From Massilia atriviolacea (lineage in GTDB: Bacteria > Pseudomonadota > Gammaproteobacteria > Burkholderiales > Burkholderiaceae_D), in NCBI RefSeq assembly GCF_003953935.1, contig NZ_RXLQ01000005.1:240625-304624 (forward strand): 64,000 nt of DNA, written 5' to 3'. Both the position numbers and the translations under genes were made by a program. The notes under the pieces are model-generated. The model made no database searches. It was not told the DNA's origin and saw nothing but the letters and a program-made list of their open reading frames with translations. Positions 42,803 through 52,461 of this stretch are shown piece by piece; the stretch's first letter is position 1, and each line of letters opens with the position of its first letter.

Positions 42803-44689
42803 ATGAGTCAATCCAGCCAGTTTTCCCTCCTGACGCAGCGCCGCTTCGCGCCGTTCTTCTGGACCCAGTTCCTCGGCGCCTTCAACGACAACGTCTTCAA
42901 GACCGCCTTGCTGGTGATATTGACGTACGAAGCCGCCAGCTGGACCACGGTCGATCCGGCCGTGTTGAACAGCCTGATTCCCGGCCTGTTCATCCTGCCC
43001 TACGTGGTGTTCTCGGCGACCGCCGGGCAGATCGCCGAAAAGGTCGAGAAAGGGCGCCTGGCGCGCTTCGTGAAGCTGTTCGAGATCGCCATCATGCTGG
43101 TGGCCGGCATCGGCTGGATGACGCATACCCTGTGGCTGCTGATCGCCTCCGTGGTCGGCATGGGCGTGCATTCGACCCTGTTCGGCCCCGTGAAGTATGC
43201 CTACATGCCGCAGCACCTGAAACCCGAAGAGCTGGTGGGCGGGAACGGCGTGGTCGAGATGGGGACCTTCGTCGGCATCCTGCTCGGGCAGATCCTGGGC
43301 GCGGCGCTGGTATTGAAGCCGAACGGCTTGATGCTGGTGGCCGGCGCCACCATGTTCTTCGCCGTGCTCGGGCTGGTGGCCAGCTACCGCATTCCGCATT
43401 CGCCGGCGCCGATGCCGGACCTGAAAATCAATCCGAATCCGATCGCCGAATCGATCCGCAACATCGGCCACGCGCGCAAGAACCGCACCGTGTTCCTGTC
43501 GATGCTGGGTAATTCGTGGTTCTGGTTCTACGGCGCCATGATCCTGTCGCAGTTCCCGCTGTACGCCAAGGAGTTCCTGCACGGCGACTACAGCGTGTTC
43601 GTGATGCTGCTCACCGTGTTCTCGGTCGGCGTCGGCGTCGGCTCGCTGCTGTGCGAAAAGCTCTCGGGCCACAAGGTCGAAATCGGCCTGGTGCCGTTCG
43701 GCTCGATCGGCCTGTCGCTGTTCGGGATCGACCTGTACTTCGCCAGCATGGGCTATGTGCGCCCGGCGCTGGAGGTGGACATGATGGGCATGCTGGCGCA
43801 GGCCGGCGTGGCGCGCGTGCTGTTCGATATTGCGATGGTGGGCGTGTTCGGCGGCCTGTTCATCGTGCCGCTGTTCGCCCTGATCCAGACGCGCTGCGAG
43901 CCGGCCCACCTGTCGCGCACCATCGGCGGCATGAATATCCTGAACGCGCTGTTCATGATCGGCGCGGCCGGCATGGCGATCCTGATGATCAAGCTCGGTT
44001 TCACGATTCCCCAGATGTTCCTGGCCACCGCCATCCTCAACGCCGTGGTGGCGCTGTATATCTTCTCGCTGGTGCCGGAATTCCTGGTGCGCTTCGTGGC
44101 CTGGATGCTGATCCACACGATCCACCGCGTCAAGACCGTGGACACCGACCGCATTCCCGAGGAAGGGCCGGCGGTCCTGGTGTGCAATCACGTCAGCTAC
44201 GTCGATGCGCTGGTGATCGGCGCGGCCAGCCCGCGTCCGATCCGCTTCGTGATGGACCACAAGATCTTCAAGATGCCGATCATGGGCTGGCTGTTCCGCA
44301 CCGCGCGCGCGATTCCGATCGCGCCGGCCAAGGAAGACCAGTTCCTGATGGAGAAGGCGTATATCGACATCGCCCAGGCGCTGCACGAAGGAGACCTGGT
44401 CTGCATCTTCCCGGAAGGACGCCTGACCTCGACCGGCGAGATGGGCGAGTTCCGGGGCGGGATCGCCAAGATCGTCGAACGCAGCAAGGTGCCGGTGATT
44501 CCGATGGCGCTGCGCGGTCTGTGGGGCAGCCTGCTCACGCGCGATCCGGGTAACCTGTTCGAGCGCACCTTCGCGCGCGGACCGCGCTCGCGCCTGGCGC
44601 TGGCGGTCGGCACGCCGGTGGCGCCGGAAGACGCCACCCCCGACTACCTGCACAAGCAGGTGCTGGCCTTGCGCGGCGACTGGAAGTAA
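42803..44689 (+). CDS. Lysophospholipid transporter-acyltransferase fusion (LplT-PlsC/Aas-like)
   Basis: A 628-residue protein. The N-terminal 12-helix MFS domain is LplT-like (FFWTQFLGAFNDNVFKTALL, with HSTLFGPVKYAYMPQHL). A C-terminal PlsC-type acyltransferase follows, with the HX4D motif NHVSYVDALV at about residue 455 and FPEGRLTSTGEM. In E. coli LplT and Aas together flip and re-acylate lysophospholipids at the inner membrane; here one chain holds transport and acyl transfer, without an AMP-binding domain. The ATG at 42803 was chosen. Confidence 0.93.
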   Translation: MSQSSQFSLLTQRRFAPFFWTQFLGAFNDNVFKTALLVILTYEAASWTTVDPAVLNSLIPGLFILPYVVFSATAGQIAEKVEKGRLARFVKLFEIAIMLVAGIGWMTHTLWLLIASVVGMGVHSTLFGPVKYAYMPQHLKPEELVGGNGVVEMGTFVGILLGQILGAALVLKPNGLMLVAGATMFFAVLGLVASYRIPHSPAPMPDLKINPNPIAESIRNIGHARKNRTVFLSMLGNSWFWFYGAMILSQFPLYAKEFLHGDYSVFVMLLTVFSVGVGVGSLLCEKLSGHKVEIGLVPFGSIGLSLFGIDLYFASMGYVRPALEVDMMGMLAQAGVARVLFDIAMVGVFGGLFIVPLFALIQTRCEPAHLSRTIGGMNILNALFMIGAAGMAILMIKLGFTIPQMFLATAILNAVVALYIFSLVPEFLVRFVAWMLIHTIHRVKTVDTDRIPEEGPAVLVCNHVSYVDALVIGAASPRPIRFVMDHKIFKMPIMGWLFRTARAIPIAPAKEDQFLMEKAYIDIAQALHEGDLVCIFPEGRLTSTGEMGEFRGGIAKIVERSKVPVIPMALRGLWGSLLTRDPGNLFERTFARGPRSRLALAVGTPVAPEDATPDYLHKQVLALRGDWK

Positions 44690-51594: not shown

Positions 51595-52236
51595 TTAGCG
51601 AGATGATTTACACAGCATCAGCCGATCGAATCCGATACCGAAACCGATTCCCTGCCGATAGGTTCCACCGCCAACCACCTGCTGTTGCGCGCCCAGCGCC
51701 GGCACGGCGAGCTCGAATCCATCGGTCGTGTAGTAATCCAAACCGCGTTGTACGGCGCGCGCTAGCACGTAGTCCTGCGTCTTCAGTCCGACCATTTTCT
51801 CGGCCAGCGAGATCAGTTCGTCGCGGATCGTGTCGGAATCGGGATTGAGCACCTCCAGTCCGAATTGAAAGAACTCGCGGTAACGTCCTTCCTGCGGCCG
51901 CTCATAGCGCCAGCAGCGTTCGAAGTACCACAGCCTGACATTCTTCCGGCGCGCGTAGTGTTTGTCGGCGATCAGCTGGACAGTCGCCGTGCCCTCCGGA
52001 CGCAGGCACAGCGAGCGGTTTTTCTTGTCCGGGAAAACGTACATCTGCGACAGAATCTCGGGTCCTGCCTTGTCCACATACACGCTCGATGGTTCGATCG
52101 ATGGCAGCACGATTTCTTCGAACCGCGCCGCTTCGGCGATGGCGATCAGTTGATTGAGCAGGACGCGGCGGTTCCTGGCTTCCTGGCCGGCGATAATGCG
52201 TACGCCCCGGGCTTGCGCTTCAATATCCAATTCCAT
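51595..52236 (-). CDS. Miniature HisRS-like class II synthetase core protein
   Basis: A 213-residue protein that matches the catalytic core of histidyl-tRNA synthetase or HisZ but is far shorter (about 380-430 in those). It has LRPEGTATVQL (78-88), motif 2 FERCWRYERPQEGRYREF (105-122), the HisA-type motif RGLDYYT (164-170), GGG at 189-191 and a motif-3-like GIGFGIGFDRL (196-206). The insertion domain and the anticodon-binding domain are missing, and HisB GGRYDGL is reduced. It cannot recognise tRNA-His normally. An automatic label would be HisZ, the HisG regulatory subunit. A histidine attenuator lies in its leader, so it responds to histidine supply. AGGGA precedes the ATG. Confidence 0.85.
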   Translation of the reverse strand: MELDIEAQARGVRIIAGQEARNRRVLLNQLIAIAEAARFEEIVLPSIEPSSVYVDKAGPEILSQMYVFPDKKNRSLCLRPEGTATVQLIADKHYARRKNVRLWYFERCWRYERPQEGRYREFFQFGLEVLNPDSDTIRDELISLAEKMVGLKTQDYVLARAVQRGLDYYTTDGFELAVPALGAQQQVVGGGTYRQGIGFGIGFDRLMLCKSSR

Positions 52237-52295
52237 GGTGATTCCCTATGCCGTCGGCAGTGCATCGCGCTCGTCGCAATACAGCGCCGCAAAAC

Positions 52296-52329
52296 AAAAA
52301 AGCCCTCGCAGCGGCGCTGGGAGGGCTTT
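52296..52329 (-). terminator. Attenuator terminator in the leader of the HisRS-like gene
   Basis: On the minus strand, AAAGCCCTC pairs with GAGGGCTTT across a 13-base loop, followed by TTTTTT. It lies about 17 bases past the leader peptide stop and about 60 bases before the HisRS-like gene. The 5' half overlaps CTCCCAGC (52316-52323), which can instead pair with GCTGGGAG in the leader (52366-52373), giving mutually exclusive terminator and antiterminator forms. Confidence 0.85.
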
Positions 52330-52345
52330 CTCAGTGATAGGGCTT

Positions 52346-52426
52346 TCAATCACGTAGCAATAGCTCTCCCAGCCGCGGATGCGACGAGGCGTGGTGGTGA
52401 GCGGCATGCTGGATGTATGGGTTCAT
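52346..52426 (-). CDS. Histidine attenuation leader peptide (26 codons)
   Basis: A 26-codon ORF beginning MNPYIQHAAHHHASSHP has five His codons, at positions 7, 10, 11, 12 and 16. It ends with LLLRD and a TGA just before the terminator. This is the classical design of a his-type leader: a ribosome stalled at His codons when charged tRNA-His is scarce frees GCTGGGAG (codons about 18-20) to form the antiterminator. No Shine-Dalgarno sequence precedes the ATG, which lies at the predicted transcription start, so translation is probably leaderless. Confidence 0.85.
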   Translation of the reverse strand: MNPYIQHAAHHHASSHPRLGELLLRD

Positions 52427-52432
52427 GGATCG

Positions 52433-52461
52433 ATCATAGAGTGGCGTTTGTTGCATGTCAA
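52433..52461 (-). promoter_or_regulatory. Sigma-70 promoter of the histidine leader and HisRS-like gene
   Basis: On the minus strand, TTGACA (52461-52456), a 17-base spacer and TATGAT (52438-52433). This is a perfect -35 and a near-perfect -10 at optimal spacing. The start base falls 7 bases past the -10, exactly on the A of the leader-peptide ATG at 52426. Confidence 0.85.

Follow-up and report, generated by a model that had tools for sequence, protein, structure and literature searches.

A His-codon leader with attenuator layout and a predicted leaderless start precedes a minimal HisRS gene in Massilia atriviolacea, with an apparent +1 frameshift in a sister subfamily

Results

The window, by which we mean the whole 64,000-nt stretch of Massilia atriviolacea DNA that was analyzed, carries on its minus strand a promoter, a short ORF rich in His codons, an intrinsic terminator, and a gene for a small HisRS-like protein that we call mini-HisRS (Table 1). 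An earlier, sequence-only reading of the locus had named the promoter TTGACA-17-TATGAT and a 26-codon ORF with five His codons, three of them in a row; both are where it placed them, with the ATG at 52426, the stop codon at 52346, and the His codons at 52408-52406, 52399-52391 (the three consecutive ones), and 52381-52379. That reading also called the element a his-type attenuator and named no gene under its control. The architecture holds up, and its predicted target is the mini-HisRS gene rather than a biosynthetic operon. This gene begins 60 nt past the GGGCTTTTT of the terminator; in eight relatives the gap is 21-33 nt, which leaves little room for another promoter.

Table 1. Features of the leader and of the gene behind it (positions in the window)
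Feature	Position	Strand	Basis or remark
-35 hexamer TTGACA	52456..52461	-	similar hexamers in type-A leaders
-10 hexamer TATGAT	52433..52438	-	17-nt spacer to -35
Predicted transcription start, A of leader AUG	52426	-	promoter geometry only; six nt past -10
Leader ORF, 26 codons and stop, peptide MNPYIQHAAHHHASSHPRLGELLLRD	52346..52426	-	five His codons
Putative protector hairpin 1:2, GUCGC (52385-52381) with GCGGC (52376-52372)	52372..52385	-	overlaps Ser-Ser-His codons; local folds
Putative antiterminator 2:3, GCUGGGAG (52373-52366) with CUCCCAGC (52323-52316)	52316..52373	-	folds, pairing counts
Predicted intrinsic terminator 3:4 with T run	52296..52332	-	CUCCCAGC common to antiterminator
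Candidate Shine-Dalgarno sequence AGGGA of mini-HisRS gene	52243..52247	-	sequence inspection
Putative regulated gene, 213-aa mini-HisRS, catalytic core only	51595..52236	-	profile, alignment, and fold evidence

The 213-residue protein is matched by Pfam tRNA-synt_His at 1.1e-23, while the NCBIfam profiles hisS (155.4 bits) and hisZ (TIGR00443, 77.2 bits) both score under their cut-offs of 286.75 and 271.65, respectively. Set against the full-length HisS of the host (451 aa, L002), mini-HisRS is without a middle stretch and without the C-terminal part, which we take to be the insertion domain and the anticodon-binding domain. What a full HisRS would have is thus present for the class II core and absent for these two domains, and the hisS score stays below the cut-off. 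Across 25 members of the family there is no variation at the residues aligned with E. coli HisRS motif 2, RGLDYY motif, and motif 3; these are presumably the class II core motifs, RGLDYY being the His motif, with catalytic roles. An AlphaFold2 model (pLDDT 85.9, pTM 0.84) finds its top Foldseek match in 1kmn_B, a HisRS with histidinol and ATP, with a TM score of 0.84 on the query. Within the M. atriviolacea genome the only other match to mini-HisRS is the normal hisS.

We distinguish the subfamily of the window (type A) from a sister subfamily (type B) that is 43-49% identical to it. Matches to mini-HisRS at E <= 1e-30 occur in 11 of the 392 genomes of a family sample, and matches to a type-B query at 1e-25 in 7 of the 399 genomes of an order sample. 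The best 80 of the 139 relatives from a contig search comprise 16 close ones (L013-L028) and 64 archaeal proteins, which are full-length HisRS in the seven that we read. Plasmid records, phage records, and IMG/VR supplied further relatives; none came from a viral scan that used the Paraburkholderia protein as query. A tree built on 45 rows places the 37 bacterial and phage mini-HisRS rows in one clade (100/100), with long-branch warnings. The nearest full-length matches are archaeal, but an origin from an archaeal HisRS is not claimed, since the host HisS branch is very long and the tree warns of long branches meeting.

The best reading of these data is that mini-HisRS is an auxiliary HisRS that would charge tRNA(His). 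Its missing anticodon-binding domain, together with the annotation of two Paraburkholderia relatives as ATP phosphoribosyltransferase regulatory subunit, would also suit a protein that does not charge tRNA and instead regulates HisG in the manner of HisZ or acts as a ligase on some other substrate. We judge such a role unlikely, though not negligible, since hisS outscores hisZ (both below cut-off), the residues aligned with the E. coli HisRS active site do not vary over the 25 members, and a tRNA-His gene lies in the fetched flanks of 12 of the 28 phage loci scanned (L104, L105, L107, L109-L113, L153, L159, L161, L162; none in the other 16). In phage Phosso (L104) a tRNA-His gene occupies 2597-2671, with the annotated gene located at 2947; at L153 two tRNA-His genes, with starts at 2520 and 2608, follow a match that ends at 2507. 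Many of the scanned phage stretches are tRNA-rich, so this proximity counts as supporting evidence only. The tRNA-His genes near phage mini-HisRS are sometimes paired; in the 64,000-nt window and in the bacterial flanks scanned, no tRNA-His was found.

The leader precedes mini-HisRS at 17 of 21 distinct bacterial type-A loci (the window, L003, L008, L013-L020, L025-L028, L103, and L124/L156, with duplicates between two collections counted once), which belong to Massilia, Undibacterium, Hahella, Pleionea, Pseudomonas plasmids, and Cellvibrionales. Sixteen of these leaders, that of the window included, were aligned; the 17th, at L124, came solely from a search with the RNA model R1. No His leader was seen in the 320 nt upstream of L021-L024, which form one type-A subclade and are not split either, nor before the phage type-A genes examined. 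Among the latter, L093-L099, L105, L106, and L152 have the N-terminus in frame in their translations, with no split. At L008 and L028, both among the 17, the gene behind the leader is interrupted; in this Undibacterium group (L028/L009 and L008) the mini-HisRS frame is broken and the leader is present.

A promoter scan of the kilobase around the leader returned a single site, with 11 of 12 matches, where shuffled sequences gave an expectation of 0.4. When a -10 hexamer is followed by six nucleotides, as here, the usual start would fall on the A of the AUG. We note that this spacing is not peculiar to the window: when the 60 nt upstream of each leader ATG are scanned for sigma-70 promoters, the top-scoring match stops 6-8 nt short of the ATG in 24 of 26 leaders. 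The 26 combine two unrelated leader types, 16 of type A and 10 of type B, and do not include L012, whose contig ends there, or L124, which was found later. Shuffled upstream sequences, under a criterion of 5-8 nt, averaged 3.3 of 26 and never exceeded 9 in 300 trials, and the mean promoter score was 10.0 in the leaders versus 3.7 in the shuffles. The two exceptions, L100 and L101, have a better-scoring promoter elsewhere in their 60 nt. Because the promoter ends 6-8 nt before the ATG so much more often than in shuffles, the leaderless geometry is, by this comparison, under selection, and the leader RNA of the window is likely leaderless.

It could be argued instead that the element is an attenuator whose transcription starts farther upstream, with a conventional translation start, for example at the in-frame ATG that the window carries inside the -35/spacer region with a GGGAG about 11 nt before it. 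L003 and L013 likewise have in-frame upstream ATGs; in the other relatives the upstream ATG of the window is absent or out of frame, and no upstream start is common to them. A Shine-Dalgarno check before the leader ATG flags one of the 26 leaders (L017), and the flagged string lies upstream of its -10. Taken with the 6-8 nt spacing, this makes an upstream start improbable. In the type-B locus L012, AGGTGAGGAA, a Shine-Dalgarno sequence, precedes the leader ATG.

Beyond the His codons the leader has, as predicted from its sequence, the 1:2, 2:3, 3:4 layout of trp- and his-type attenuators. The complementarity that the sequence-only reading had reported, GCTGGGAG at 52373-52366 with CTCCCAGC at 52323-52316, is found at both places, and the terminator that it had set in competition with this pairing lies at 52332-52296 and shares CUCCCAGC. 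The antiterminator is extended by GCU (52364-52362) pairing with AGC (52327-52325) and by an apical helix within 52357-52330. When isolated, the stretch from GCUGGG to CUCYCAG(C/U) folds as the antiterminator GCUGGGAG.GCU ... AGC.CUCCCAGC with its apical helix in 16 of the 16 aligned leaders, and 98.9% of the cells of the main helix are paired. The terminator stretch also folds in 16 of 16 and is part of the best full-leader fold in 15, the antiterminator winning over it in the full-length fold of L028. A terminator scan restricted to loops of 3-8 nt did not list the terminator at 52332-52296. In silico, then, a short ORF rich in His codons is joined to an antiterminator and a terminator that exclude each other and share a segment.

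The protector hairpin required a correction. The pairing proposed earlier, GCCGC in codons 8-9 with GCGGC, is possible in the window; three Massilia relatives read TCCGC and keep a shortened CCGC:GCGG, and leaders of other genera do not have it. Conservation singles out GUCG(C) with (G)CGGC as the protector, given by RNAalifold over the 16 leaders as GUCG/GUCA with CGGC/UGGC. One of its pairs is GC in seven leaders, AU in seven, GU in one, and unpaired in one. A hairpin of this type appears in 12 of 16 local folds (L003, L013, L015, and L027 fold otherwise). In every one of the 16 leaders the final His codon sits at the protector loop, a constant 7 nt before GGCTGGG, and one or more further His codons are found 16-34 nt ahead of that motif; each leader holds 2-5 His codons.

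A loss of the His codons or of either stem in relatives had been named as evidence against attenuation; the comparison found the His codons and the antiterminator and terminator arms kept in all 16 aligned leaders. Covariation, the other check proposed, was borne out for one pair of the protector, through the two-sided GC/AU change (AU in 7 of 16), and not for the terminator and antiterminator, where two-sided changes in the 16 leaders do not exceed shuffles; their columns are almost constant, and the alignment of the apical helix is faulty. For these two stems we rely on the fold of each individual sequence, together with the protector pair. By inspection, the apical helix differs in sequence yet pairs, as GUGAU:AUCAC, as GUAAA:UUUAC, and as a GUGUG-type helix in Pseudomonas. 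With its parts in place and conserved in relatives, the his-type reading is supported, and the element in the window is very likely an attenuator.

The elements just described, their conservation, the promoter-ATG geometry, and a HisRS core with its active-site residues can all be read from the sequence, and they suggest to us a mechanism that we hold to be highly probable: a ribosome-mediated attenuator that would switch on an auxiliary minimal HisRS when His-tRNA(His) is scarce. The 5' end is predicted, transcription starting on the A of the leader AUG; translation of the leader is likewise predicted, a ribosome loading on the leaderless RNA and reading the His codons. The response to His-tRNA would follow from where that ribosome goes. 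With His-tRNA plentiful it would pass through segment 2 (GGCUGGGAG), and segment 3 (CUCCCAGC) would then pair with segment 4, so that transcription stops at 52296. A ribosome stalled on the His codons would cover segment 1 and free segment 2, and the 2:3 pairing would preclude the terminator, so that the mini-HisRS gene 60 nt farther on is transcribed and its product could charge tRNA(His). If no ribosome loads, the 1:2 protector would form and transcription would terminate. A ribosome positioned at the stop codon would shield segment 2, located 18-26 nt upstream of it, only in part; termination must therefore rest, in this scheme, on the moving ribosome.

A different proposal is that the leader RNA is always terminated and that it, or its peptide, acts in trans, with mini-HisRS served by a weak promoter of its own. 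There is a precedent in the S. meliloti rnTrpL/peTrpL pair, where, according to the cited part of that work, rnTrpL starts with the trpL ATG and acts in trans (PMC7298713), and the stretch from GGCTGG to TGC is nearly invariant at the nucleotide level among our leaders. We nevertheless consider the proposal quite unlikely: the gap to the gene is as short as 21 nt, an alternative antiterminator would be purposeless, and the strong matches of an RNA model in 369 genomes of the class directly precede mini-HisRS. In that scan 20 genomes had a match at E <= 0.001, two of them above 100 bits (the window's own genome with 123.1, G1076 with 102.3), and it is these two that stand directly before a mini-HisRS gene; the remaining 18 genomes gave nothing above 31.7 bits. 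Seven weak matches from six genomes were inspected and set aside (L125, L127, L128, L132, L133, L134, L145), none being followed by mini-HisRS. Within the attenuator reading, the leader RNA or peptide may additionally act in trans. Two of the 274 genomes in the class of G1076 hold the protein at E <= 1e-45; the leader accompanies it in one of them and is missing from the other, the L022 gene.

The genes on either side differ from genus to genus in most cases, because of which the leader and the gene look like one mobile cassette. Among the neighbor matches listed (window, L015, L016, L018, L019; 25 loci compared), no widely recurring operon partner was found. For the neighbor genes of the window, counterparts occur in Massilia only; Pleionea and G1076 have two downstream ORFs in common, and one neighbor protein, 30% identical, is shared by Undibacterium and Pleionea at different places, all among those same matches.

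Taken alone, the window offers modest statistics: its leader folds with z -2.71 versus shuffles, with the terminator in the best fold, and the isolated antiterminator stretch also gives z -2.71. The feature is raised above chance because the promoter-ATG distance, the His codons, the antiterminator, and the terminator recur in relatives. The idea that promoter, His-rich ORF, and terminator came together by accident, which those modest statistics might invite, is refuted to near certainty by their recurrence with fixed geometry in at least six named genera.

The sister subfamily, which occurs in Burkholderiales and in huge phages, has leaders of its own in the bacteria. A His-rich leader ORF is present at 11 of 11 bacterial type-B loci, and a GGCGCC terminator follows it at 9 of the 10 examined, L102 being a degraded copy. 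Exact complements 5-8 nt long occur in eight of the nine terminator-bearing leaders, with none in L121, and the stretch varies; a type-B antiterminator is not established from these. L100, L101, and L116 carry His runs and a GCGCCGTGGT able to pair with ACCAAGGCGC at the terminator, a pairing noted by eye that a script did not confirm. They could have an attenuator unrelated in sequence to that of type A.

The coding sequence itself is split in ten intact bacterial and ten phage type-B genes (counted without the duplicates L108 and L154). The N-terminal part runs up to (C/G)TT CA(T/C), and the HisRS core continues onward in the +1 frame. A type-A phage gene, L153, is split independently at a different place, also at CTT CAT, which brings the set to 21 (L010, L011, L012, L100, L101, L104, L107, L109-L116, L118-L121, L159, L153). 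A split at a His-codon site belongs to the sister genes and L153; the gene of the window has none. In all 21 the shift site is CUU (16) or GUU (5) followed by a His codon. A stop codon comes immediately after in 17 and 2, 1, 2, and 10 codons later in L104, L114, L153, and L159; for this reason a frameshift driven by the stop codon, as in RF2 proper, was rejected. L160 resembles an unsplit relative.

A Shine-Dalgarno-like element precedes the shift site in 19 of 21 genes; L115 and L159 are without it, and that of L111 is weak. Its duplex energy at the site averages -6.75 versus -1.25 (sd 0.57) elsewhere in the same genes, with 0 of 5000 draws as low, in a fixed window that was set after the pattern had been noticed by eye. 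Allowing any spacing of 0-8 nt makes the result for seven sites less striking, 4-19% of other codons being as good. Energies of -9.2 to -12.6 are found at the five GUU sites, for which poorer re-pairing would be expected. In ten bacterial genes the synonymous fractions in frames 0/+1/+2 are 0.48/0.11/0.09 before the site and 0.08/0.62/0.10 after it; six phage genes, chosen for N-terminal parts of equal length, give 0.41/0.19/0.07 and 0.08/0.83/0.06, from pairs that are not independent. The frame of protein-level constraint thus switches at the shift site in these 16 of the 21 genes, and both parts are therefore under such constraint and the genes not simply decayed. We regard the split as an apparent RF2-like programmed +1 frameshift at a His codon. 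The predicted His leaders and His-codon frameshift of the sister subfamily are an independent link to His-tRNA supply. In L100 and L101 (3920-4531 in each) the database start lies in the frame of the core, upstream of the shift site; both are annotated ATP phosphoribosyltransferase regulatory subunit, and the conserved N-terminus is in the other frame.

Discussion

Attenuated HisRS paralogs, as predictions in Bacillus, and leaderless leader peptides are already known. The enterobacterial scheme of a His leader peptide, mutually exclusive hairpins, and an intrinsic terminator, as outlined in the portions cited (PMC9413887, PMC3896937; RF00514 His_leader), is shared by the leader of the window, which differs in standing before a HisRS-like gene instead of biosynthetic genes and in that no Shine-Dalgarno sequence was seen. 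Naville and Gautheret (2010) predicted His leader peptides before Bacillus hisS* and hisZ, and the passages cited report no similarity between Firmicutes and proteobacterial leaders (PMC2965389). In both cases a HisRS paralog stands behind a His leader peptide; hisS* is a Firmicutes case, and the cited passages do not mention a leaderless start or a minimal core (PMC2965389). For S. meliloti trpL the leader peptide ATG is described in the cited part as the RNA 5' end (PMC7298713), which here is predicted by promoter geometry only; that case concerns Trp, alphaproteobacteria, and biosynthetic genes. Given this precedent, a leaderless leader peptide is not new in itself. An auxiliary synthetase under ribosome-mediated attenuation also has a parallel: Streptomyces trpRS1, the subject of work by Vecchione and Sello in 2010, is reportedly an auxiliary antibiotic-resistant TrpRS controlled in this way, in actinobacteria and with a link to a drug, none being known here.

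The leader of the window would offer a compact, testable example in which a leaderless leader peptide operates an attenuator in both beta- and gammaproteobacteria, and in which transcription and translation must be coupled from the very first base of the RNA. Mini-HisRS looks like a natural HisRS cut to its catalytic core and bears on the minimum synthetase that is needed.

The sister genes resemble release factor 2, whose autoregulatory +1 frameshift in bacteria is covered in the cited part of a 2016 review by Atkins and colleagues (PMC5009743), in having a Shine-Dalgarno-like element a few nt before a CUU (or GUU) codon, a slow A-site codon, a +1 frame that encodes the functional part, and a product that would govern the slow step. 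They depart from it in that the A-site codon is His (CAU/CAC) in 21 of 21 instead of a UGA stop read by the gene's own product, which here is HisRS-like. On hungry-codon frameshifting as a way to make starvation-specific proteins, the same review says in the passage cited that "no examples are known" (PMC5009743), so that the apparent shift in the sister genes would fall in a class then called unknown. If true, it would be a natural hungry-codon programmed frameshift making a starvation-specific protein. We think it fairly probable that mini-HisRS is a mobile family of bacteria and huge phages gated by His-tRNA(His) at two levels, by leaderless attenuation and, in the sister genes, by a +1 frameshift with a hungry His codon where RF2 has the stop codon. 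The surprise for specialists would be the family-wide pattern, the His-codon frameshift above all. Among the titles and abstract openings listed from the open-access literature we found nothing on this leader, the mini-HisRS family, or a natural hungry-codon frameshift.

At the leader locus every Rfam family stays below its gathering score, and RF00514 gives no match at gathering score over the window nor at E up to 10 over the leader. Two hits stayed below threshold, Leu_leader at 17.7 bits against 50 (E 0.36) and ctRNA_p42d at 26.9 against 50, and we read both as terminator look-alikes. Elsewhere in the window, at 43458-43579 on the plus strand, the Rfam family Bcj11 (Burkholderia RNA 11) matches with 61.1 bits.
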